33,174 bases of DNA, taken from the NCBI GenBank assembly GCA_016785955.1, contig JAEUWH010000105.1, forward strand, positions 1 through 33,174. The letters are read 5' to 3'. Below the pieces are notes generated by a model. The model made no database searches. It had not been told where the DNA came from and saw nothing but the letters and a program-made list of their open reading frames with translations. Of the stretch, positions 1,443 through 25,779 are shown piece after piece; positions within the stretch are counted from its first letter, which is position 1; each line of letters starts with the position of its first letter. Source of the stretch: Pseudobdellovibrionaceae bacterium. Its GTDB lineage: Bacteria; Bdellovibrionota; Bdellovibrionia; Bdellovibrionales; Bdellovibrionaceae. The translations under genes and the position numbers were made by a program.

Positions 1443-2039
1443 CTATTTTTTTAAATTAGCAGATCGTATCACGTGATCTACAGCAAAATGCTGAATGTCT
1501 TGAACATTTGATTCAAAGAAAATATTTTTTTCCAGTGCTTTTTTCTTGTTGGCGTATTCAAACGTCCAATCGCTGAACTCTGTTCGGGCAAGATCAATGT
1601 AACGATCGTATTGCTCTAGTGCGCGAATTTGAGAAATTTGACTGAATAACAGTGACTTCTTTGTTTCATTAAAGGCAATAATCTCTGCTACAACTTTTTG
1701 GTTGATGAGCGACGACAAGCTTTCAATTTTTGGGATATTAAGAGGTCGTTGGCGTACCACGACACTAAGTTCGTTCAGTTTTTCTGAAATTTCCTTAATG
1801 TCCTTATTTTTTTTTGAAGCTATCGCTAGCTTATTTAAAAAATCGTTTCGTGACACATAGGCATTAGATACCTTTTCGAATTTAGAACTGGCTAACGCCT
1901 GGTAGTTTTTTAGATTTTCAACATTAGATTGATACTTTGTCTTTATCGATTGGAAATACAGGGCTCCCGCGAGGCTGATGACCACAAAAACCGCGACGAT
2001 AGAGCCGTAGACATAGTTGGAATTATTTTTTACCACCAT
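1443..2039 (-). CDS. small membrane-anchored protein, coiled-coil rich, coupled to the giant lipoprotein
   Basis: I do not recognise this 198-residue protein firmly. It has a short polar N-terminus, one membrane helix (about residues 10-28, YGSIVAVFVVISLAGALYF) and a long, charged, mostly helical body, so it is probably a bitopic inner-membrane protein with a periplasmic coiled-coil domain. The arrangement (N-terminal helix, then antiparallel helices with a segment like 'ARTEFSDWTFEYANKK') faintly recalls LemA, but the conserved LemA stretch is not clear and I do not assign it. The first codons overlap the 3' end of the 2340-residue lipoprotein gene by 10 bases, so the two are translationally coupled and probably work together, for example in assembly or tethering of the large surface protein. 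That role is inference. Confidence 0.7.
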   Translation of the reverse strand: MVVKNNSNYVYGSIVAVFVVISLAGALYFQSIKTKYQSNVENLKNYQALASSKFEKVSNAYVSRNDFLNKLAIASKKNKDIKEISEKLNELSVVVRQRPLNIPKIESLSSLINQKVVAEIIAFNETKKSLLFSQISQIRALEQYDRYIDLARTEFSDWTFEYANKKKALEKNIFFESNVQDIQHFAVDHVIRSANLKK

Positions 2040-5000
2040 CGTTTTACCATTCTAACAACATGCGATCCCCGTTCGGCAATGTATAAGTTGCCGTCCGCAT
2101 CGAAGGCAATACCATGGGGCTGGTAAAGTTGGATTTGGGTACCAGCCTTAAGTTCAGATTCAGTGCCTATCTGTGATCCTCCACGAGTACTGCTGGTTGG
2201 ATTCGAGCCAATAACACGCTGTAAATTTCCGGCTGGATCCGTGCGATCAAAGCAGTACACTCCATGAGTGCCGGTGTTTACGTCAGTCCATAGCTGGGTA
2301 TTGCTGCCAGATCCACCTGTTGATACACAAACCCACTTGTTCTCAAATGCCGTAAGACCATTCAGTCGTGCCGTTGTATTGGTCGGAGCAAATGTCCACA
2401 GTGTTGTTGTTTTAACTTCAGCGACACCTTTTCCCGTGGCTTGTCCGCCGGCAATTGATGGAAATGCAACATTTCCTGAGCCGGTATTGGCGTAGCGAAT
2501 TTTCCCAGTCGATTGGTTATGACCTTCAATGAAGAAAAAATTTGATGTATTCATTGGGTCAATCACCATCTCTGTCGGAAAAGTGACTAGGGTTGGATTA
2601 GTATTGTTATCACCATTGCCGTAATCATCATTAGAACCCGATGTTCCACAGCGACCGATAAAATTTTTGAGGTCTCCGTTGGAATCTAATTTTAAAATAC
2701 AGTGATTGCGAACATCAGAGATATACAAATTTGTCATATCCGTGATGAGCCCCACTGGCTCTAGCAGACTGTTAAGTAAGCCGTTTTGTCCAAAACCAGT
2801 TGTACCAACACAACCAAGGGCATAGTCGCCAATAATATTATTTATTTTATCTGGTGACACGTCTTCTCCAAAAATAGTTCGTGTCTGTGAAAGATTTCTG
2901 TTGTGCGCACGAATCGCGCACGTCGTATTAGGTCCAGTAACTTGATTGTCACCTGTTAACGTTGAGTCTGCAAATAGTAAGAAATCTTTGGCATTAACTC
3001 CGCTTGTTTTGTACAACGCCATTTGCATTGGACCACCCAAAAACATACCGAACTTGTCTTCGGATGGAACTGTCACATGATTTGATCCAGGGTTCACACC
3101 TGTTGCGCGGCCACGACCTAGAAAGGTTTCAAATGATCCTTTGGTTAAATCGACTTTACGGATGCGACCATTTCGCATATCCGACACAAATAAATATTTA
3201 TTAGATGGATCGTAAATTAAACCGGTAGGTTGATCCATAACCGCATCTTCAGATTGCACAATGGCATCACCGTACCAACCATAACGGAAACGTCCTGAAC
3301 CTAAATCTGTGGAAACGACTCCGTTGGATAAATTCATTTTTCTTAGACGCCAATTGGTCGTATCCGCAATCATTAGATTGCTTCCTGAAGGATCGAAAGT
3401 TAGGCCAGTGACAACACAAACTCGGGATGTTGTTCCAACTTTAGTGTCGCCGTTAAAGGCACATGCGCCGCTTCCGGTGACCATTGTATACTGGTGATAA
3501 AGTCCCGTCGATGTGGCACTGGAACCGAAAGTAGTATTACCAATCGAAAGCGAAGAAGAGGTCGTGCCATTAGCGTCCAAGTTATTCAAGAAGCCAATAT
3601 GATAGTTGTCATAGTTCGAGATAAAAAATCCATGGATGCCATTCACAGTTTCATAGACAGAAAGGCCGAAACCCCATCGAAACGCAGCATTTGCCACTGG
3701 TCCGAAAGCGGTAGCACTTACGCTGGCTGCGGCTACAGGATTGCTTAGCAAAGTTCCTACTTTTCCGGCGGCGACTTTTGTGGTTCTTGCGTAGTAAATA
3801 AACCCTTCGGTGTACGAGGTTGCGTTACCAGAATATGTGATCGAGTTAATCGGAGTACCCGAGCAGGTAGGGTCATTGGATGCATAAAAATTTCCACCAT
3901 TACCAGCGTAGAAGCGAACTTTGACAGTGTTCGCTGGATTCACTGGGTTCGTGCTGTTCGATGGCTGTATCAATACGCGTTCGCAGTCTTGAAAATGCAT
4001 CGAGTTGGGAGCCGAAACAAACGCAATACTGTTCGCTGCCGAAGCACTTGTTGCGATCACTTGCACTGAGCCTAGGGCTCCCGTAGCAATCGTTGGATGT
4101 AAGTTTGATGTTGCGGTCACCGTAAGACCGGATGCATTGGCTGTGCCTTTGACCCAGAACTCGACATATCGCTGACCCGACACAATCGTGTAGTTGTTAT
4201 TTGTGGTATTAGAGATACAATTTGCCAAACTTGTATGGAACGTAATCGAACCACCAGAAGCGGACATGGTTAAATCGACGTTTTGATTGTGGATCGCTGT
4301 TAAGTTACTGGCGTCCTGCAGCTGAGCACGGAAAGGATAGCACATACCATTGCCAATGGCGGTTGTGCCACTTTGTGCTGTCGGCCCCATAAGAGTGACT
4401 TTATTTGCCGTATTCGCCGACGCATTGACGGCTTGCAGACGGGTTGTTCGCGTGCTGGTGCCGATACCGCCAGAGTTCAATGAATCGATAGCCACCAGTG
4501 ATGTCGCGGCGGCTAGCGTGCGTCCAGGAAAAAATTCAATGGTCGATGCTGTACGGTTCAGAACACGTAGTCGACCTTCTCGCTCTGTCCAATACAGATT
4601 GCCGGCCGAATCTTTTGCCAGTTGTACATTGTATTGTGTGCGCGCTTCTGTCAGCGGATCTCCATCTTCAAGACCGTCACTCATGACTCCGCTATTTAAA
4701 CGTCCGACCACAATTTGAGTGAAACCATATGTGGCAATATTTGAGGGATCCGTAATGTTGATTTTACGGATAGTATTGCGGCAAGCCGCATACAAGAATG
4801 TATTTGGACCTTCTGTGAATACAATTAATCCATTGGCATCATAACAGATTTGCGTGACTCCAGACGTAGGCGTTGTTGCATTAGCGGCCGTTACGTTACT
4901 TGGCCAAGCGTTGTCACTTACACGACCAACCAAACTTTCTGCAACACCATTTTCTTTTAGAACGACGATACGATGATTGCTCATGTCGCCAACATACAGG

Positions 5001-8000
5001 CGACCTCCATGATAGACCATCGAACGTGGGTTATTCAGTTTGAATGGATCAGCAGTCACGGATTTATTTGGTGTGATACCTCCGCCTCCAAGACCTAGTA
5101 TCGGAACAATTTGTCCATAAGGAATTGATTTTCCAAAACGAGTGACATCGTCCGCTGGTGACGTTCCTTTATTCCAATAAAACACGGAATGTGTATTGTT
5201 GTCGGAAAACATAATGTTGTTACCATCGTAAATGATACTCCAAGGCTGCATACGCATTTTAGTCATGTCGCTGGCTGGATAACGATCACCACCAACACCG
5301 GCTTGACCAACAAGCGTACAAACTTGGCCACCACGTTCGCCGATGGTGGCATTGTACAGTTTATTGCATTCTCTTGAGAACATATTCACTTCAAGATTCC
5401 AATCGAAAGACACAGTCTCGAATCCATCCGAGATAACCGCAGTGACCGACATGGCACCAAGTTTTTCAAGAACGTAATTTGGCGTGATGGTTGCTGTTGA
5501 ATAGGATTTATCACCGGCTGTTGTGTAAGCAAGAAACGAATCTCCTCCGGCCGGTAGTTGCTGGTTATTAATTTTCCAATAGTAGGTCAAATTGCCAGCG
5601 TCTTCGGTGTCCGCGTCAGTCCCATATATTCGAAGCTGTAGGGTAGATCCATAGTTCATACGAATTTTGCCTGTCGATGTCAGGGATTCAGAATCTAGTG
5701 TTCTGGTGAGGCCTGTCCCCGCAGTGCCAGCCGCGGCCGTATTGATTGTTGGAATGCGATTTCGTTTTAAATTCCACGTACAACTTTGGACATTATTGTA
5801 TTTGTCAACCACTTCTACCACGAGAGGTCGAGTCCCAACAGACCATACCTTATCCGGTGTTTGGCCTGTAGATGTGTCGGTTGAATTGGTGGCCACTTTT
5901 AATTGTGCTGTTGTTTGACCAGAAATTAAAGTGCCATTTTCCTTCCATCGATACGTGATATCCGGGCCAGTTGCCGAGACCGTAAATGTTTTAATGTCAT
6001 ATTTTACAGGAGAGTCTTGTACTTTTGATAACAGTGTTGTCGCTCCCTGAACCGGTGAGCAGGCTTGAATTTGTACTGCGGCCGGGTCTTTGATATTGAC
6101 AGCCCATTGACAGACACCTGTATCCCAACCATCGTAAAAACTGGACGTCACAGATTGCGTGGCCCCCAGTACGCCGACCGTAGGATTTAGAGTGGCCGAA
6201 GCATCATATGATACCGCTGAAATACTAGAAAACAATTCAGGGTAGGCATTGTTTAACTTCCAAGTGAAACTGACGGCATCGCCGTCGGTATCTCCAGCCT
6301 GACACGTAAAGTGCATTGTCGAATTGTAAAATAATTCATTTCCCGTGGCCGCTGGTGTCTGACCAATCAAACATGTTGGAACCGTATTTTTGACGATCGT
6401 CCACGATTGTGTTGTCGGTGTTCCAACGCCATTATCTAGACTGGCCGTTAAGGTGTTCGTAGCCATGAGCGAGCCGTTCAGTGAAGACAAATTGAACAAG
6501 TTTCCAGTGCTTACCGTATTGCCATTTAATTTCCATGTGATCACACAACTGGAATCATTTGGAATAATGCCGTATGTAGTGGTGATATTATTCTGAACGG
6601 AAACTCTTTGCGTGGCTCCCGAGGGAAATGATGACGTAACCAAACAATTGTTGTAGACCATTAAATCCCAATTCAAATCAACATCGTCAGTGCCATCATT
6701 TACAGTAATCGTCAGTGCGCGCGAGCCGGTATAACTTCCATTAAAGCTGAATCGACCTTGAAAGGGATTCGTTGCCGACAGACTAGTGAATGTGATAGGT
6801 GGATTCATTGATCCTACCGTAACACCATTGACTTTCCATGTTGCAGTCAAAGTATCACTGTCAACGTCCGCCATGTTGGCCATGAAATTATAAGCAGAAT
6901 TGATCGATAAATTGTGAACCGTAGATGCCGTGGGGGTTTGATTGGCTGTTGGCAAATTGTTTCTTTTCACAGTCCAAGTTGTTGTAACTGGTGTCACACC
7001 ATCTGTAACAACCGCTTGAAGAATGTTATTGCCCGGAGAAAAGTGAGATGAGTTAAACGTTTTGAATGAATCGTGTCCTGAAACGGGGGTGCCATTGATA
7101 GACCAAGTCACTGGGCAGCCAGCGGTGCTTGTGTTAATTGTGTAAATGCTGCCGACCACATCATTTGCTTTAATTTTAATAGGTGAAGAGTTACTTGGTG
7201 TAAATCCCGTTAACGAGCAACTTCCTTGAACCGCAATGTTCCAAAAACATTGAGTGGTATCGTAGCCATCGCTTACAGATAGAGAAGCAATGTTGTTTCC
7301 TACATTGGCAATTGTCGGACTGAATTGGGCCGAGCTTGAACTGGCCGTACTTCCCAGTGTGGCTAGAACGGCAGCCGTTGAACCATTTAATTTCCATGCA
7401 AAATTAAAATTGTCGCCATTTGAATCAGATACTGCGGCTTGAAGGACTTGCGTTGCACCTTGGGTCATTGTCAATGAAGTATTGGATGGAGTTAAGGTGT
7501 CACATGAGGGTGGGCTGTTTTTAACTAGATTCCAATTGCGCGTGACTGTACTGCCAGAACCATTGGTGACTGTGGCGGTCAAGGTATGATTTGTTCCTAC
7601 TGAAAGTAACGAATTAGTCGACACCAAGCTGTAGAGTGTTCCGGTACCGACATTGGTTCCATCAATAGCCCAAGTAACCGAGCAATAGCCTGGATTATTA
7701 GGAGTCACGTTAAATGCCGTGATGGTCGATGCACTGGCTGCGAATCTTTGATTGGGGATGTGATCCGGTGACGAGGACGCAATCTCACAACCTGGTAAAA
7801 CTTGAACAGGCCAACTACATGTCGTTGACTCATAACTATCGCTGACTACGACCGCAACGCTGTTGGCACCCACTTGGGCTATGGTTGGAATAAATGTCGC
7901 GCTTGAGGTTGCGCCCGTGCTGGATGAAGATAAAATCGCTGATGAAACCGTTTGGTTATTAAGCTGCCAATTGAAAGACAGTGTGTCGCTGTTAATATCT

Positions 8001-9052
8001 GAGGCCGTTAAGCTCAAGTTCAAATTTTGTGAAATTCCCGTTGTCTGGGTAGTCAGATTACTGGGGGTCATGCTGCCACAAGAAGGTGGCGAGTTTTTAA
8101 CGACGTTCCACGTTTGTGAACTTTGCCCTGTTGCACCGGTGACCGTGGCTGTCAGAATATTATTACCGACTGAAAATTGAGACGAATTAAGGAGCTTCGA
8201 TGAACCAGTGCCAGTAAGGGGAGCGCCATTCACCGCCCATTGCACTTCGCATCCGGCGGTCACCGTTGACACCGCAAAACTGTTTTGTGTCGATGCGGGC
8301 GATAAAATGCGAATCAAATTTCCGGTAACGTCGGGTGTTTTTGAAGTGATCGAGCAATCGCCTGTAACCCGCACGCTCCAAGTGCAGCTAACGGTGTCGT
8401 AGCCATCCGTAACGGCGGCAGAAATACTTTGAGTACCACCATTTTCTGGTTGCGGTTGAAAACTAATTTGCGAAGCCGTGGACGAAGAAATGATTGGTAC
8501 CAGAAGTGTAGAATTGGCCACTCCGTTATATTTCCAATTAAATTGCAGCGGATCGTTGTCCGCATCAGTAGATTGAACCGTCATTTGCAGCTGCGCACCG
8601 GCAGACATCGACGGAGTCAAGTTGGTTGGACTTTGAGAGTTACACGTTGGTGGATTGTTCTTAGTGATGGTCCATTCAAACGACTCGGCACCTGTAGAAT
8701 TAACTAGATTGACCTTAACTTTATTTTCGCCGGGTTTAAACACACTGGAGTCTAATTCCGCGATTAAGCCTTCTGCTTTTACCACAACATCGTTAACTAG
8801 ATATTCAGCCACACAACTTTCAGAGTTCGCTTGCACGATGAATTGATTTTTAACTCCCGAGGCTGCACCCACACGAAAGCTTTTGTTTTCTGGTTTAGTA
8901 GAAACGATTTTGCATGCGGGATTTCCTTTGCCACCGGACTCAAGAAGTGCGAAGTCGCCGCTGTCGCTGCTGCGATTGCAGGCCGTTAAGAACCCGATAA
9001 GAAATATTGATAATACGTAGCGCATATAAAATGAGATACTCATGTTTTTCAT
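2030..9052 (-). CDS. giant lipoprotein: six paired Ig-like repeats plus split NHL beta-propeller
   Basis: This 2340-residue protein begins with a lipoprotein signal ending FLTAC (Cys25 if the first ATG is used; ATGs at codons 4 and 10 are alternatives, and none has a clear ribosome site). Residues about 45-1222 hold roughly six tandem ~190-residue units, each made of two Ig-like sandwiches. One half has a '..C.v.W.vNG...G' core; the other ends '..VSDgYd.t.C.W.v.v'. The recurring Cys suggest a disulfide per domain. From about 1225 the sequence changes to NHL-type propeller blades (for example LYVGDMSNHRI, LFVSDMRNGRIRKVD, LYISDVRNHCILK and, at the C-terminus, LYIAERGSHVVRMVK). A Big-type Ig region at about 1510-1785 interrupts the propeller. 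The fold points to cell-surface adhesion or ligand binding. It overlaps the next gene by 10 bases. Function in prey contact is speculation. Confidence 0.85.
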   Translation of the reverse strand: MKNMSISFYMRYVLSIFLIGFLTACNRSSDSGDFALLESGGKGNPACKIVSTKPENKSFRVGAASGVKNQFIVQANSESCVAEYLVNDVVVKAEGLIAELDSSVFKPGENKVKVNLVNSTGAESFEWTITKNNPPTCNSQSPTNLTPSMSAGAQLQMTVQSTDADNDPLQFNWKYNGVANSTLLVPIISSSTASQISFQPQPENGGTQSISAAVTDGYDTVSCTWSVRVTGDCSITSKTPDVTGNLIRILSPASTQNSFAVSTVTAGCEVQWAVNGAPLTGTGSSKLLNSSQFSVGNNILTATVTGATGQSSQTWNVVKNSPPSCGSMTPSNLTTQTTGISQNLNLSLTASDINSDTLSFNWQLNNQTVSSAILSSSSTGATSSATFIPTIAQVGANSVAVVVSDSYESTTCSWPVQVLPGCEIASSSPDHIPNQRFAASASTITAFNVTPNNPGYCSVTWAIDGTNVGTGTLYSLVSTNSLLSVGTNHTLTATVTNGSGSTVTRNWNLVKNSPPSCDTLTPSNTSLTMTQGATQVLQAAVSDSNGDNFNFAWKLNGSTAAVLATLGSTASSSSAQFSPTIANVGNNIASLSVSDGYDTTQCFWNIAVQGSCSLTGFTPSNSSPIKIKANDVVGSIYTINTSTAGCPVTWSINGTPVSGHDSFKTFNSSHFSPGNNILQAVVTDGVTPVTTTWTVKRNNLPTANQTPTASTVHNLSINSAYNFMANMADVDSDTLTATWKVNGVTVGSMNPPITFTSLSATNPFQGRFSFNGSYTGSRALTITVNDGTDDVDLNWDLMVYNNCLVTSSFPSGATQRVSVQNNITTTYGIIPNDSSCVITWKLNGNTVSTGNLFNLSSLNGSLMATNTLTASLDNGVGTPTTQSWTIVKNTVPTCLIGQTPAATGNELFYNSTMHFTCQAGDTDGDAVSFTWKLNNAYPELFSSISAVSYDASATLNPTVGVLGATQSVTSSFYDGWDTGVCQWAVNIKDPAAVQIQACSPVQGATTLLSKVQDSPVKYDIKTFTVSATGPDITYRWKENGTLISGQTTAQLKVATNSTDTSTGQTPDKVWSVGTRPLVVEVVDKYNNVQSCTWNLKRNRIPTINTAAAGTAGTGLTRTLDSESLTSTGKIRMNYGSTLQLRIYGTDADTEDAGNLTYYWKINNQQLPAGGDSFLAYTTAGDKSYSTATITPNYVLEKLGAMSVTAVISDGFETVSFDWNLEVNMFSRECNKLYNATIGERGGQVCTLVGQAGVGGDRYPASDMTKMRMQPWSIIYDGNNIMFSDNNTHSVFYWNKGTSPADDVTRFGKSIPYGQIVPILGLGGGGITPNKSVTADPFKLNNPRSMVYHGGRLYVGDMSNHRIVVLKENGVAESLVGRVSDNAWPSNVTAANATTPTSGVTQICYDANGLIVFTEGPNTFLYAACRNTIRKINITDPSNIATYGFTQIVVGRLNSGVMSDGLEDGDPLTEARTQYNVQLAKDSAGNLYWTEREGRLRVLNRTASTIEFFPGRTLAAATSLVAIDSLNSGGIGTSTRTTRLQAVNASANTANKVTLMGPTAQSGTTAIGNGMCYPFRAQLQDASNLTAIHNQNVDLTMSASGGSITFHTSLANCISNTTNNNYTIVSGQRYVEFWVKGTANASGLTVTATSNLHPTIATGALGSVQVIATSASAANSIAFVSAPNSMHFQDCERVLIQPSNSTNPVNPANTVKVRFYAGNGGNFYASNDPTCSGTPINSITYSGNATSYTEGFIYYARTTKVAAGKVGTLLSNPVAAASVSATAFGPVANAAFRWGFGLSVYETVNGIHGFFISNYDNYHIGFLNNLDANGTTSSSLSIGNTTFGSSATSTGLYHQYTMVTGSGACAFNGDTKVGTTSRVCVVTGLTFDPSGSNLMIADTTNWRLRKMNLSNGVVSTDLGSGRFRYGWYGDAIVQSEDAVMDQPTGLIYDPSNKYLFVSDMRNGRIRKVDLTKGSFETFLGRGRATGVNPGSNHVTVPSEDKFGMFLGGPMQMALYKTSGVNAKDFLLFADSTLTGDNQVTGPNTTCAIRAHNRNLSQTRTIFGEDVSPDKINNIIGDYALGCVGTTGFGQNGLLNSLLEPVGLITDMTNLYISDVRNHCILKLDSNGDLKNFIGRCGTSGSNDDYGNGDNNTNPTLVTFPTEMVIDPMNTSNFFFIEGHNQSTGKIRYANTGSGNVAFPSIAGGQATGKGVAEVKTTTLWTFAPTNTTARLNGLTAFENKWVCVSTGGSGSNTQLWTDVNTGTHGVYCFDRTDPAGNLQRVIGSNPTSSTRGGSQIGTESELKAGTQIQLYQPHGIAFDADGNLYIAERGSHVVRMVKRWW

Positions 9053-9392: not shown

Positions 9393-10013
9393 ATGAAAAA
9401 TATTTTTTATGTTTTAAGTGTGTTCTTACTGCAGATATCTTGTTCGACTTCTAACCTTCGTGTGGAAAGTCAACCCGATGGCGCGGATGTATATGTATCT
9501 GTGAATGCGCAGACAGCAAAAAAAATCGGAGTGACCCCACTTAATATACAAGAGAATCAAATTAGCTCGGGTAATGAGCCTTTTCAATTATCGATTATCA
9601 AAGAAGGTTTTGTGACGGAACATATTTTGTCTCCGGCCACAACTTTTTCAAGAAATTTAAGTGTTCAAGTAAAGCTGCGTGAGACGAGCAGCTCGAAGCA
9701 GTCGATTAACGACGAGGTATTGCAAAAAGTGAGTTCTCAAGTAGCCTACACTCAATCATTGATTCGATCTAAAGACTATGATGCTGCGGAACGAGCGATT
9801 CTGGGAATCTTACCTCAATTTCCTAATGTAGCCACGTTTCACGAGTTACTCGGGAATGTTTACTATTTAAAAAAAGATCTTCAGCGTGCGCACACATCAT
9901 ATAAACGGGCGTTGGATTTGAATCCGTCGAATACAGACACGGTCAGAATGATTCAGAGAATTGAAGGCGTTCGATCTGATTTACGTTCGCCATCCTCGTT
10001 CGGAGGTCGGTAA
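9393..10013 (+). CDS. PEGA-domain and TPR lipoprotein
   Basis: This is a 206-residue predicted lipoprotein (signal ending LQISC, Cys17). Residues about 22-100 form a PEGA-type domain: LRVESQPDGADVYV at its start and KEGF before the final strands are the usual PEGA signposts. Residues about 115-195 hold two TPR-like helix pairs (LLGNVYYLKKDLQRAHTSY, then ALDLNPSN). PEGA domains are small beta-rich domains found in envelope and surface-layer-associated proteins; TPRs bind protein partners. AAGGA sits five to eight bases before the ATG. It is the first gene of the stator/rotor operon and its stop overlaps the MotA-like start by one base, so it probably acts with the motor proteins in the periplasm, perhaps as an outer-membrane-linked bushing or pilotin. 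That role is inference. Confidence 0.8.
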   Translation: MKNIFYVLSVFLLQISCSTSNLRVESQPDGADVYVSVNAQTAKKIGVTPLNIQENQISSGNEPFQLSIIKEGFVTEHILSPATTFSRNLSVQVKLRETSSSKQSINDEVLQKVSSQVAYTQSLIRSKDYDAAERAILGILPQFPNVATFHELLGNVYYLKKDLQRAHTSYKRALDLNPSNTDTVRMIQRIEGVRSDLRSPSSFGGR

Positions 10014-11530: not shown

Positions 11531-13228
11531 ATGAAAAACGGGATATTTTGGCTAGGCATGTTTGTTCTCTTTATGGGAAGTCTTGGCTTTGCTCAAAATG
11601 CAAAACATCCTCGAGTGGTTGAACTTGAAAAAACTCTTTCTAGAGAGGCGCTCGAAGTTTTAAAAGGCCGCTTTCCTGATAAACCATTTTTGGTAAATGT
11701 CAGAATTGATCCAATGATGAGGGATCGCAAATCATCATCTGGTGTTGGTGGCGAGCGCTTGCCGTACTACGAAATTTCAGAAGAAGAAGTCGTGGATGAA
11801 TGGGACGATCCGAATGTTCCCGTCTTGGCCTTAATTAATAGAGTACGAAAAATCCAAGTTAATATGTCCGTGCCGGCACAATTGTCTGATGAAGAAATTT
11901 CCGAATTGAAATCGTCGGTGATTTATAATTTGGGATTGGTCGAGGCTCGTGACTCTGTCGAGGTTAATAAAAGAAACTGGAATGCCTTTAACCTGCCTAA
12001 AGACAATTCTTTTGATTGGTCAATTTTAGGATATGGAATGGGGGCGTGGATCTTAATAATGGCAGGATTGTTGTTTATCACTTGGTTAGGAACCAATCGT
12101 CTGGCGCAATCAATTCAAGACTCGGCTATTAGCCAAAAAGGTAATGGTAATGGTGGGGGTGGTATTGTTAATGCCACGATTAATGCAACGGGTGGCAGTG
12201 GGGGCGATTCGGGAAAAGCTGCCAATTTTGGAAGTGCAGATCTGAAATTACAAGATCCTATCAAAAATCGTGAGATCATTGCGTCGGGTTTAAAGATATT
12301 AGACTCTCACCAAAATTTTCCTAACCTGGAAGATATGCTAATTTTGCAAAAAGCGGCAGAAGAGCGTCCCAATGATTTGGGAGCCTTGCTAAGTGAGTTT
12401 CCTTTTGAACTTAGACAAAGACTATTTAGTTATAGTTTTGGTGAAAAGTGGATGGAAGTGATGATTGATCCGTCGGATGTAACTTCATTTTCTTTGGAGA
12501 TTCTAAATCGCTGTCTTAAAATTCAGCGAAATGAAACGGATCGAGACTGGTTGAATTTGCTGATTTATGTTTGGCGGCTAAATAGTCATAAAAAAGAATT
12601 TTTCAATGGTATCCCGCAAGCGGATGCGTTTTCCATTCTTTTTTTTCTGCCGAAGTCCTTCGCGATAGAAGCCGCTCGCGAGTCTTTCCCTGGAGCTTGG
12701 GGGCAATTATTAGACCCTACGTTTACAGTAAAGAAATTGGGAAAAGAAAAGACGAAAGAGTATACTGAAAAAGCAATTAGAATTGCTCCTCTCCGAGACC
12801 TGGCCGTTCTAGAGAATTATAAGAACGAACGCGAACTTCTTGGTTTCTTGAAGGTGAGTGATCCGGTGGCAGAAAAGGAAATTTATTTAGCCTCAGGAGA
12901 CTCTTCAATTCTGTGGTCTATTAGGCCGCCGTTTTTTAAAGTATTTGAGCTGAACGGGGACGAGTATGATAAACTTGTCGGACGATTTAAAATCGAAGAA
13001 TGGGCCATGGCTATGTTTAACGTCGGTCGGGTTGAACGACGTGAAATCGAAAAGCGTATGAGTGATAAACAAAAATTTCGTTATTTTGAAATGTTAAAGA
13101 GCTATGACATGAAGAACCCTGCAAAATCTCGAGTGGGCGAAATTCGTGAATCTGTTGGGAAGATAATCGCCGAGATACAGGCTGAATCGGCCGGTGAATC
13201 AGCGTTAGAAACAAAGTCTGCAGCTTAG
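11531..13228 (+). CDS. FliF-C/FliG-like fusion: membrane-anchored rotor protein
   Basis: 565 residues from the ATG at 11531 (GAGG just upstream; an upstream in-frame start would overlap motB and spoil the signal peptide). In order: signal peptide ending FAQ (1-21); a periplasmic domain whose end (about 107-146) matches the last ring-building segment of FliF, e.g. NLGLVEARDSVEV against FliF AIGFNAARGDSVKI; one membrane helix (165-187); a Gly-rich linker (203-230); and a helical cytoplasmic body (258-550). Its last 80 residues align by eye with the FliG C-terminal domain of this window: VFELNGDEYDKLV with IIKIDDRGIQTLL, then AMAMFNV with LLALKTA, then KRMSDK with KNISAR. Of the FliG torque charges, K275 is Phe496, R292 is Lys513, E299 is Glu520, D300 is Met521 and R308 is probably Lys532. 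It follows motB by 10 bases. The role as rotor of the MotAB pair is inferred. Confidence 0.75.
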   Translation: MKNGIFWLGMFVLFMGSLGFAQNAKHPRVVELEKTLSREALEVLKGRFPDKPFLVNVRIDPMMRDRKSSSGVGGERLPYYEISEEEVVDEWDDPNVPVLALINRVRKIQVNMSVPAQLSDEEISELKSSVIYNLGLVEARDSVEVNKRNWNAFNLPKDNSFDWSILGYGMGAWILIMAGLLFITWLGTNRLAQSIQDSAISQKGNGNGGGGIVNATINATGGSGGDSGKAANFGSADLKLQDPIKNREIIASGLKILDSHQNFPNLEDMLILQKAAEERPNDLGALLSEFPFELRQRLFSYSFGEKWMEVMIDPSDVTSFSLEILNRCLKIQRNETDRDWLNLLIYVWRLNSHKKEFFNGIPQADAFSILFFLPKSFAIEAARESFPGAWGQLLDPTFTVKKLGKEKTKEYTEKAIRIAPLRDLAVLENYKNERELLGFLKVSDPVAEKEIYLASGDSSILWSIRPPFFKVFELNGDEYDKLVGRFKIEEWAMAMFNVGRVERREIEKRMSDKQKFRYFEMLKSYDMKNPAKSRVGEIRESVGKIIAEIQAESAGESALETKSAA

Positions 13229-23092: not shown

Positions 23093-24748
23093 GTGAGTAA
23101 ATTATTTGCTGGCTTAATTGTACAATTTAGAGAATTCTTCAAAAACTTGGGACCGACCAAACGGTTTTCCGTTGTTATCGTGGGTCTGATTGCTGCTCTG
23201 TCTTTTGTTTCCATTTTCTTTATGCTGTCTGGAAATGAATATGTTCCACTATTGACAAATGTACCTACGGACCAAATGCCATCCATCGTGCAAAAATTAA
23301 CTGAAAAGAATATTCCATTTCAGTTAAAAGATAATGGTAAGATTGTGGCGATCCCAAAAGAATTACTGCATTCAACCCAAATGACATTAATGGCCGAAAT
23401 TGGCTCTTCAAAAATGGGATCTATTGGCTTAGAGATTTTTGACAAGCAGGATTTTGGAGTTAATTCGTACGCACAAAAAATTAACTACCAAAGAGCTTTG
23501 CAAGGCGAGCTTATTCGTGCCATCAATACATTAACGGCCGTGAAACAGTCTAAAGTTATTTTGGCCTTACCAAATAAAAAGACATTTTTAGAAGAGGGAG
23601 GGAAACCCTCGGCTTCGGTGGTGATTGAGTTGCATCAGGGTAAAGAATTATCTACGGATCAAATTCGTGGAATTCGTTATTTAGTCGCTAACGCTGTAGA
23701 GGGCATGGATCCAGAAAGTGTGGCAGTTCTAGATGAACGAGGAAAAGTTCTTACTCAACATAGTGATGGATCGACAGCGGGATCTTCAGAGATTTTGGAC
23801 CTTAAAAGGAAAATTGAAAGAGAGTATGAAACACGAATTGAAAGTATTCTTTCCAAAGCAGTCGGGCAAACCAAAGTTGTAGCCAAAGTTGATGCCACTC
23901 TGAATAACAAAGTGGTTTCTAGTGTTGAAGAAATTGTAGATCCTGAAAAAACTGCGGTTCGTGCTATGCAGAGCGAAGAAGAGTCTTTAGATGGTTCTCG
24001 TGTGAATCCTGCGGGAGTGCCTGGGTCTCGTAGTAACTTGCCAGGTGCTGAAGATGCGGGGCAAGTGGGATTCAAGCAAGATGTAAAGAAAGAAATCAAA
24101 ACAACCAATTATGAAGTCCCTAAAACGGTGAGAAACGTAAAAGAGGCCGCGGGAAACTTGGAAAAAATTTCGGTGGCCGTTGTCGTTGATGGCGTATTTC
24201 AAGTCGTGAAGAGCGATCAGGGCGTAGAGGAATCCAAGTGGGTGGCGCGGTCACCAGAGGACTTGAAAAAGTTCGAAGAGATCGTAAAAAATGCGATTGG
24301 TTTCAATGCGGCCCGTGGAGACTCGGTCAAAATCGAGAACGTTCAATTCCAGCCAGAGGACTTTTCTGAGGCCGAAAAACTGCTCACAAATTTAGAGCGT
24401 AGAAAGTTGTTACAGGCTTTATTTAAGTGGGCCTTACTTGCGTTTTCTTTGGCATTATTGTTTATCCTAATCATCAGACCATTCATGCAATGGATTACAG
24501 ATTCATTCCAGGATACGGTGGACGAGATGTTACCTCGTACGATTGAAGAGCTTGAAGAGTTACAGTCGGTCGACAACACGTTGCCGGGAATGTCCGGTGC
24601 GTTGCCGGTATTGCAGGAGTCTATTGATCCTGATAAGGCCGAGTCCGAATTACTCAAAGATCGTATCATGACTTTAATGCAGAAAGATCAAGAGAAAGCC
24701 GCTAATGCATTCGGCATGTGGTTGGTCAGAAAGGATGAAAAGGCGTGA
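23093..24748 (+). CDS. fliF: flagellar MS-ring protein FliF
   Basis: This 551-residue protein starts at GTG (AGTTAAA upstream, GGGGTAG further back). It has the first membrane helix at about 24-46, the YscJ/FliF ring-building domain (EYVPLLTNV and onward), the long second periplasmic region, the conserved segment AAGNLEKISVAVVVDGVF, and the last ring-building motif NAIGFNAARGDSVKIENV at about 398-415, then the second membrane helix (about 440-460). The cytoplasmic tail (to 551) carries the FliG-binding end, WLVRKDEKA. Length is typical. It overlaps fliG by four bases (GTGA). It serves as a direct comparator for the FliF/FliG-like protein at 11531. Confidence 0.97.
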   Translation: MSKLFAGLIVQFREFFKNLGPTKRFSVVIVGLIAALSFVSIFFMLSGNEYVPLLTNVPTDQMPSIVQKLTEKNIPFQLKDNGKIVAIPKELLHSTQMTLMAEIGSSKMGSIGLEIFDKQDFGVNSYAQKINYQRALQGELIRAINTLTAVKQSKVILALPNKKTFLEEGGKPSASVVIELHQGKELSTDQIRGIRYLVANAVEGMDPESVAVLDERGKVLTQHSDGSTAGSSEILDLKRKIEREYETRIESILSKAVGQTKVVAKVDATLNNKVVSSVEEIVDPEKTAVRAMQSEEESLDGSRVNPAGVPGSRSNLPGAEDAGQVGFKQDVKKEIKTTNYEVPKTVRNVKEAAGNLEKISVAVVVDGVFQVVKSDQGVEESKWVARSPEDLKKFEEIVKNAIGFNAARGDSVKIENVQFQPEDFSEAEKLLTNLERRKLLQALFKWALLAFSLALLFILIIRPFMQWITDSFQDTVDEMLPRTIEELEELQSVDNTLPGMSGALPVLQESIDPDKAESELLKDRIMTLMQKDQEKAANAFGMWLVRKDEKA

Positions 24749-25779
24749 AGGTAGTTAAGGCAGAAAATATAGAATTTGAAGTTCTCAAAGGCTTTGATAA
24801 GGCGGCTATCCTTCTTAACTATTTAGGAAAAGACGCCGTAAAAATTCTATTAGGTAGAATGGAAGATGCAGATATCCGTAAATTAATTAATGTCATGAAC
24901 AAGTTTCGCGTTGTTCCTGTTCATGTTACGAAGAAAGTTTTAGAAGAGTTTTACGAGATGGTCAGCGAGACGGATGATTATATTTTTTCGGATCAAATTT
25001 CAAATAAGGACAGCATCGTCGATGCGGTTGGAGAAGACCGTGCTCGCGGAATTTTGGGCGGTTTGAATATTGGTTCCGCGAATGCTCGTTCTTTAGAGTC
25101 TTTGGAGATGGTCGATGCCAAATCTTTGGCAAATTTCTTAGTCAACGAACATCCACAAACGGTGGCAGTCATCCTGGCTCATCTTGAGCCCGAGAAAAAA
25201 GGCGAGGTTTTAAAGCGTCTGCCAGATACATTACAAGCTGAAGTGGTATTGAGAATGGCAAACCTGGAGCATGTTGATCCTGAACTTATTTTGGAAATTG
25301 ATAAAGTTTTGAAAAACCAGTTGGCGAATACTGCCAGTGTTGAACAATCAACGTTGGGTGGGGTACAACCAGTAGCCGAAATGTTGAATGTTATGGATAA
25401 AAATACTGAAACCTCGATCATGTCTCGTTTAGAAGAAAAGGATCCATTGTTGGCCGAAGAGATTCGCAAATTGATGTTCGTCTTTGATGACATCATCAAG
25501 ATCGATGATCGTGGTATTCAAACACTTCTTAAGGAAGTTCCCAATGACAAGCTTCTTTTGGCTCTTAAGACGGCTAGTGAAGACATCAAAGCAAAAGTTT
25601 TCAAAAATATTTCTGCTCGTGCGGCCGACATGTTACGTGAAGATTTGAATAATATGGGACCTTCGCGTTTGTCCGACGTTGAGGGCGCGCAACAGGAAAT
25701 TGTCAATGTAGCGAGACGTTTAGAGGCGGAAGGTAAGATACTAATTGCTAGAGGTGGTTCAGAAGATGCCATGGTATAG
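24745..25779 (+). CDS. fliG: flagellar rotor switch protein FliG
   Basis: This 344-residue protein begins at GTG inside the fliF end. It has the FliF-binding N-terminal domain (GFDKAAILLNYLGKDAV), the middle domain with the EHPQT motif (135-139) and the torque-generating C-terminal domain. The charged positions that meet the MotA loop are in place: K275, R292, E299, D300 and R308, corresponding to K264, R281, D288, D289 and R297 of E. coli. It sits under the MS ring and carries FliM. FliM and FliN are not in this window. Confidence 0.97.
   Translation: MKVVKAENIEFEVLKGFDKAAILLNYLGKDAVKILLGRMEDADIRKLINVMNKFRVVPVHVTKKVLEEFYEMVSETDDYIFSDQISNKDSIVDAVGEDRARGILGGLNIGSANARSLESLEMVDAKSLANFLVNEHPQTVAVILAHLEPEKKGEVLKRLPDTLQAEVVLRMANLEHVDPELILEIDKVLKNQLANTASVEQSTLGGVQPVAEMLNVMDKNTETSIMSRLEEKDPLLAEEIRKLMFVFDDIIKIDDRGIQTLLKEVPNDKLLLALKTASEDIKAKVFKNISARAADMLREDLNNMGPSRLSDVEGAQQEIVNVARRLEAEGKILIARGGSEDAMV

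Follow-up and report, generated by a model that had tools for sequence, protein, structure and literature searches.

The flagellar rotor is built from two chains, FliF (with its ring-building motif 3, RBM3) and FliG, and works with MotAB stators. A natural fusion of the two has been described for Chlamydiaceae, namely, a protein of ∼330 amino acids (aa) with two transmembrane (TM) helices and an RBM2-like sequence, which has no RBM3/SpoIIIAG-like domain, carries only the M domain of FliG, and may interact with the injectisome; a MotAB partner was not reported (PMC4768692). FliF-FliG fusions have also been engineered, in Vibrio, where the product forms rings (PMC11481574), and in Salmonella (as cited in PMC4768692). 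The Agl-Glt gliding motor of Myxococcus pairs an ion motor resembling a stator with partners in the envelope (PMC13104615), its AglRQS proteins belonging to a generic (TolQR/ExbB-like) group (PMC12505986), and in the GldLM/T9SS of Bacteroidota a 5:2 stator, described as non-homologous to MotAB, drives a trans-envelope load (PMC13104615) with a rotor that is not FliG based. For Bdellovibrionota, a review of April 2026 states that the gliding machinery "remains unidentified" and names this a major open challenge (PMC13104615).

We analyzed a stretch of 33,174 nucleotides from a Pseudobdellovibrionaceae bacterium (referred to herein as the window), in which a natural fusion between the C-terminal part of FliF and a FliG-like body had been predicted from the sequence alone. 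The protein consists, in this order, of a signal peptide, a FliF-RBM3-like domain, one TM helix, a disordered Gly-rich linker, and a FliG-like body; since signal peptide, RBM3, and TM helix precede the FliG part, it is not a separate soluble FliG of ∼340 aa. Hydropathy agrees with the predicted N-terminal signal stretch and single TM helix (by this measure, about residues 165 to 183), between which only ∼130 to 140 residues are left, so that most of FliF (TM1, RBM1, and RBM2) is missing, as had been proposed. Pfam and NCBIfam searches with the window protein alone gave no useful match, and YscJ_FliF of Pfam was not matched; FliG became visible only with the family, and the prediction was therefore tested through relatives. 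We refer to the clade of the window's RBM3-TM-FliG fusion protein as X and to its sister clades as X2a, X2b, and X5. When 60 related genomes were searched at the protein level, matches were obtained in 20 genomes besides that of the window, and 18 complete or near-complete X sequences were aligned (alignment A1). The aligned proteins start, where the sequence is complete, with a hydrophobic N terminus; then come a domain bearing conserved LPY and DEWDD-like motifs, a single TM helix, a low-complexity linker, and a helical body with an invariant PG.W, conserved RPPF blocks, and a C terminus that usually reads AA.

Profile comparisons related the two halves of the protein to FliF and FliG, respectively. 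The periplasmic part alone matched the FliF profile with an E value of 3.5e-6, and hhalign placed fusion residues 104 to 186 on FliF residues 358 to 473, with RBM3 and TM2 in a single register (E = 3.5e-5). The pairing of NLGLVEARDSVEV with AIGFNAARGDSVKI, on which the original prediction had based the RBM3 assignment, emerged unprompted from the profile alignment of the 18 X sequences against 30 FliFs (E = 3.5e-5). For the cytoplasmic part, hhalign matched residues 350 to 548 with FliG residues 123 to 325 (domains M to C, E = 0.0015), and in a comparison of the A1 profile with all PDB sequences FliG was the sole significant match (residues 468 to 549, E = 1.7e-4); this alignment is ungapped over ∼57 columns, which bears out the gapless C-domain alignment predicted earlier. 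The FliG_C model of Pfam was matched individually by 9 of the 18 family members (best E value, 1.3e-5), the window protein not being among them, so that this search upheld the family and not the single sequence. Reversed or column-shuffled FliF and FliG profiles, used as controls for chance similarity, gave E values no better than 0.1, and nothing was matched when the pairing was crossed, with the periplasmic part compared with FliG and the cytoplasmic part with FliF.

An AlphaFold2 model computed on A1 (mean pLDDT of 78) showed a helix-strand-(insert)-strand-helix-strand arrangement for residues 27 to 148, a long helix (residues 163 to 201), disorder over residues 200 to 239 (pLDDT of <50, in agreement with the predicted Gly-rich linker), and a helical body (residues 243 to 564). 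Compared with the PDB, residues 22 to 151 of the model resembled RBM3 of FliF in 6sd1_A (Z = 11.6, 95 residues aligned, 2.6 Å) and 8z5v_A (Z = 12.1, 2.5 Å), versus Z values near 8 for the next unrelated entries. Residues 465 to 554 resembled the isolated FliG torque domain 1qc7_B (Z = 12.0, 88 residues aligned, 2.3 Å), and the torque region likewise matched 8ucs_H, FliG bound to a MotAB stator (Z = 11.9, 2.1 Å). Both conditions attached to the original prediction, a FliG torque fold in residues 465 to 550 and an RBM3 fold at the periplasmic end, are thus fulfilled. A VIA structural alignment extended the match to fusion residues 336 to 554 on FliG residues 99 to 320, and the families of FliF RBM3 (residues 22 to 151) and FliG (residues 336 to 554) were the only ones above the PDB background. 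Foldseek alone was weaker for the X model (best E value, 2e-3; none below 0.001), its first 30 places being held mostly by FliG and FliF. The M-C order of FliG is matched in X, and the N part is unresolved. From the model, we infer that the β-collar of FliF is replaced by a short disordered insert with the conserved LPY...DEWDD, and that this insert, between strands 1 and 2 of RBM3, occupies the site of the large insertion of FliF.

X shares with the flagellar rotor the RBM3 fold, the position of TM2, the folds of the FliG M and C domains, and the type of MotA and MotB, but it is one chain, without TM1, RBM1, RBM2, or, according to the model, the β-collar. Like the chlamydial protein, it is a reduced FliF naturally joined to a FliG-like sequence; in contrast to that protein, it has RBM3, a single TM helix after a signal peptide, and the FliG C domain, and it is encoded together with stators, which have not been reported for the chlamydial protein. 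The covalent order RBM3-TM2-FliG is also that of the engineered Salmonella and Vibrio fusions, which are unlike X in being laboratory-made, in containing full-length FliF, and in forming part of a flagellum. The statement that no family of this architecture had been described hence needs correction, because a natural FliF-FliG fusion is already known from Chlamydia, although its domain content differs; it is the combination of RBM3, torque domain, and dedicated stators that sets X apart. To our knowledge, no FliG or FliF domain occurs in the Agl-Glt system of Myxococcus. No description of the X module was found in the open-access literature searched, subscription papers being mostly outside the scope of our search.

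Besides the chlamydial precedent, the original prediction had missed the operon context and the wider superfamily. The fusion gene lies in a conserved operon with the order PEGA/TPR lipoprotein, MotA, MotB, fusion, and outer-membrane barrel (Table 1), in which adjacent genes either share a few bases or are at most 13 bp apart and which, among 20 neighborhoods, was intact wherever the contig extended far enough. A lipobox-like Cys of the lipoprotein is found among the homologue matches listed, and relatives keep its position in the operon. The barrel is co-located in relatives, and its counterpart at the X5 cluster of a complete genome (G189) matched OMP_b-brl with an E value of 4.2e-4. Near the operons, no riboswitch scored above the cutoff. 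The divergent neighbor of the operon encodes a giant lipoprotein, a possible surface partner; 16 of the 20 fetched neighborhoods have a relative close to the X operon, and the core region of the lipoprotein is single-copy in the window's genome. Fusion-rotor genes of different clades also tend to be adjoined by genes for giant lipoproteins or for surface-type proteins, with repeats of the Ig, NHL, or FG-GAP kind, although these proteins are not obviously homologous to one another (L221:3580-8247 onward, L194:11953-15591, and the window's own at 2030-9052 on the minus strand).

Table 1. Genes of the operon and its divergent neighbor and parts of the fusion protein (positions in the window)
Feature	Position	Strand	Evidence or remark
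Giant lipoprotein, 2340 aa, Ig-like repeats and NHL beta-propeller, lipobox LTAC	2030..9052	-	Pfam NHL 2e-13
PEGA/TPR lipoprotein, 206 aa, lipobox ...LLQISC	9393..10013	+	Pfam TPR_2 5.8e-08, PEGA 0.0023
MotA-type stator subunit, 260 aa	10013..10795	+	Pfam MotA_ExbB 3.4e-19
MotB-type stator subunit, 242 aa	10792..11520	+	Pfam MotB_plug 2e-10, OmpA 9.9e-08
RBM3-TM-FliG fusion protein, 565 aa, proposed rotor	11531..13228	+	ATG to stop; gene 4 of 5
Signal peptide, residues 1-21	11531..11593	+	Hydropathy peak 3-21; aligned hydrophobic N termini of relatives
Periplasmic RBM3-like domain, residues 22-151	11594..11983	+	Structural alignment; profile against FliF
Single TM helix, about residues 164-186, at the position equivalent to FliF TM2	12020..12088	+	Hydropathy; hhalign
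Gly/Asn/Ser-rich disordered linker, residues 197-240	12119..12250	+	pLDDT <50 over 200-239
All-helical armadillo-type body, FliG N/M-like, residues 243-464	12257..12922	+	hhalign; VIA; clade X5 alignment
FliG C-terminal torque-domain-like fold, residues 465-554	12923..13192	+	Structural alignment; PDB sequence profile
Small outer-membrane beta-barrel-like protein, 188 aa	13242..13808	+	Pfam Opacity porin-like 0.058 (weak)

A survey of orthologs in Bdellovibrionota, suggested along with the original prediction, located clade X in 69 of 369 genomes (at an E value of 1e-20 or better) and clade X2a in 61 genomes (at 1e-15 or better). When the window's own genome was searched for FliG_C, two more fusions, X2b (631 aa) and X5 (589 aa), came to light on one of its contigs (C98). 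Counting strong matches only, at least one of the four fusion clades occurs in ∼147 of roughly 360 Bdellovibrionota genomes, 39 of which have more than one. The partner genes recur in reshuffled order across the other clades: X2b is accompanied by a PEGA lipoprotein, an outer-membrane barrel, MotA, and MotB, and X5 in complete genomes by MotA, MotB, a PEGA/TPR lipoprotein, and an OMP_b-brl protein. X5 provides a bridge at the sequence level, with Pfam FliG_C, FliG_M, and FliG_N all above their cutoffs, E values of 5.2e-15 against FliG and 2.3e-5 against FliF, and a model that matches full FliG (residues 4 to 331, Z = 14.2) and RBM3 (Z = 10 to 12, ∼2 Å). Since X can be aligned with X5 from end to end (E = 1.2e-13), the relation of X to FliG does not rest on weak matches alone. 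Weak matches in two genomes of the phylum (G187 and G082) had been considered as possible FliF; this was rejected, as they represent the second fusion clade. In an unrooted tree, FliG falls among the fusion clades, and whether a single fusion event gave rise to all of them is unresolved. A search of public contigs with the closer X subset returned only Bdellovibrionota-type metagenome-assembled genomes (MAGs); this search relied on two peptide patterns and hence does not establish that the fusion is missing from other organisms. No relative of the fusion was found among the viral contigs searched.

Several further observations were made during the survey. One public contig carrying this Bdellovibrionota operon (CALQIT020000096.1, 9815 bases, L061) is titled as a Streptomyces griseus MAG; its base count is the same as that of a contig from a same-family genome (G024 C96), and the organism label looks wrong. 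Two more divergent FliG-like fusion candidates (L193:5934-7727, 597 aa, and L194:8000-9676, 558 aa) have MotA and MotB adjacent and lie outside the four clades analyzed. Stand-alone FliG_C-domain proteins of ∼130 to 250 aa, distinct from both fliG and the fusions, are present in many Bdellovibrionota, including the window's genome (L224:2595-3341 on the minus strand, L199:2917-3357, L200:6305-6730, L201:2946-3425, and L202:6331-6726). X5-type clusters also occur near genes for a von Willebrand A-domain protein and a HAMP-SpoIIE phosphatase (L222:3124-4503 and L252:5673-7424), a hint that the stator-rotor set may be regulated.

The reading that we consider most likely, though not with certainty, is that the fusion and its operon form a compact rotary motor that is independent of the flagellum and passes force to the outer envelope. 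The original prediction had called the protein a compact membrane-anchored rotor; its architecture holds, and the proposal can build on observed domain folds and domain order, on the operon and its recurrence, and on the stator type, while ring assembly, stator contact, rotation, envelope coupling, and gliding are inferred, with neither an oligomer prediction nor an experiment behind them. The signal peptide and the single helix would insert the fusion into the inner membrane, where the periplasmic RBM3 domains might build a ring, as in FliF, and the cytoplasmic FliG-like bodies, held to that ring by the same chain, would form a torque ring. Co-encoded MotA5B2 stators, anchored to peptidoglycan via MotB, would use ion flow to turn the ring through the FliG-C-like domain; the PEGA/TPR lipoprotein and the barrel may take up the output of the ring in the periplasm and pass it to the envelope or surface, and the load may be the giant beta-propeller/Ig lipoproteins whose genes are often neighbors. 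Unlike the flagellar system, the operon has no genes for FliM/FliN, rod, hook, or export gate and comes with its own stators and outer-membrane partners; the absence of FliM/FliN from it suggests that there is no chemotactic switching. Opposite NEHPQT of FliG (an EHPQR-type FliM-binding motif), X5 has EGESTS, and the site is variable among X members.

One feature of the torque domain weighs against a rotary motor. Of the E. coli FliG charges K264, R281, D288, D289, and R297, X keeps only R281 and D288: Lys513, at the Arg281 site, is K or R in 18 of 18 members, and Glu520, at the Asp288 site, is E or D in 16 of 18, whereas Phe496, at the Lys264 site, is non-basic in all 18. With the sites of Lys264 and Asp289, two classic torque charges are gone, and a stator contact unlike the flagellar one is to be expected. 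The corresponding MotA partners, Arg90 and Glu98, could not be mapped with confidence, the region being too divergent in the operon MotA.

True fliF (23093-24748) and fliG (24745-25779) genes lie within the window, as noted at the outset, and a true fliF was found in 66 of 67 other X-positive genomes tested, which identifies the fusion as a paralogue rather than the flagellar MS ring, as had been predicted. As FliF is present in nearly all X-positive genomes, some connection with the flagellum remains possible, and the fusion and its MotAB could instead form an additional ring or set of stators on the flagellum, which is single and sheathed, and provide added torque or surface sensing. The window operon is indeed located only ∼10 kb from flagellar genes. 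In the complete genome G189, moreover, an X5 cluster lies beside MotAB near 2.92 Mb, where we presume locus tags near Bd3020 to fall. From this position, the adjoining stators are probably MotA2-Bd3021/MotB2-Bd3020 of B. bacteriovorus, a sister system to X. MotA2/MotB2 (Bd3021-Bd3020) have been treated as flagellar stators in a study that does not mention FliG (PMC11323537). However, operon and fliF are on different contigs in most relatives (for example, C13 and C3 of G003 and C1 and C7 of G023), the excess of FliF-positive genomes may only mirror lineages, given that the genomes without FliF fall together in families with small genomes, and an accessory would bring an RBM3 ring domain that duplicates the MS ring, together with an outer-membrane barrel and a lipoprotein. 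We therefore regard a flagellar accessory as unlikely.

The nature of the stators bears on a second alternative, in which a Tol-Pal/ExbBD-like, non-rotary energizer pulls or pushes the outer-membrane partners and the RBM3-FliG protein is a static scaffold. The barrel, the lipoprotein, and a MotB of OmpA type would suit such a device. This MotB has a plug, an OmpA-like peptidoglycan-binding domain, and a SYGDM ion-site motif with its TM aspartate, which is present in 18 of 18 rows of the MotB family alignment. The best NCBIfam models for the operon MotA were flagellar MotA/MotP/PomA, with no equivalog cutoff reached, and in a tree the MotAs of the X operons formed one clade (98/99) that belongs to the MotA-type set and does not include the ExbB/TolQ-like copies. 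Judged by their sequences, the co-encoded MotA and MotB are of the flagellar stator type and not of the ExbB/TolQ type, in contrast to AglRQS of Myxococcus. Because of this stator type, and because the fusion keeps the flagellar MotA-contact domain, including K/R513 and E/D520, we find a non-rotary energizer improbable. The suggestion that the FliG-like protein is a regulatory decoy, capturing or braking flagellar stators at the membrane, can draw on the retained FliG-C fold and on flagellated hosts, yet it leaves the RBM3 ring domain superfluous and does not fit stator genes of its own that co-diverge with it (Mantel r = 0.89, 0 of 999 permutations, although joint inheritance alone would give the same), a barrel, and a lipoprotein, and we give it hardly any credence. 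Altogether, 16 MotA_ExbB matches were found in the window's genome (L204 to L213; G000 contigs C30, C46, and C98). Five of its MotAs are flagellar-type, one in the window operon, one beside X2b, one X5-type without an adjacent rotor gene, and two others; those of L210 and L213 remain as candidates for the flagellum.

If the fusion and its operon do form a rotary motor outside the flagellum, our best guess for its output is surface gliding or the movement of adhesins; this guess is made because the gliding machinery of Bdellovibrionota is unidentified, and only context ties the system to gliding. It is conceivable, if at present doubtful, that Bdellovibrionota possess several parallel motors of this kind, each consisting of a one-gene RBM3-FliG rotor with dedicated MotAB and envelope partners, and that these supply the force, hitherto unaccounted for, behind gliding or prey-surface movement. 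Should the reading as a separate rotary motor be right, a flagellar-type stator-rotor pair would work outside the flagellum with no more than two stator proteins and a single gene for the fused rotor. This would show how few parts suffice to convert ion flow into torque and would bear on the evolution of the flagellar motor, and in B. bacteriovorus one or more of the stator pairs at present assigned to the flagellum would have to be relabeled. For the gliding motor of Bdellovibrionota, an open challenge in the field (PMC13104615), the operon provides a concrete candidate.
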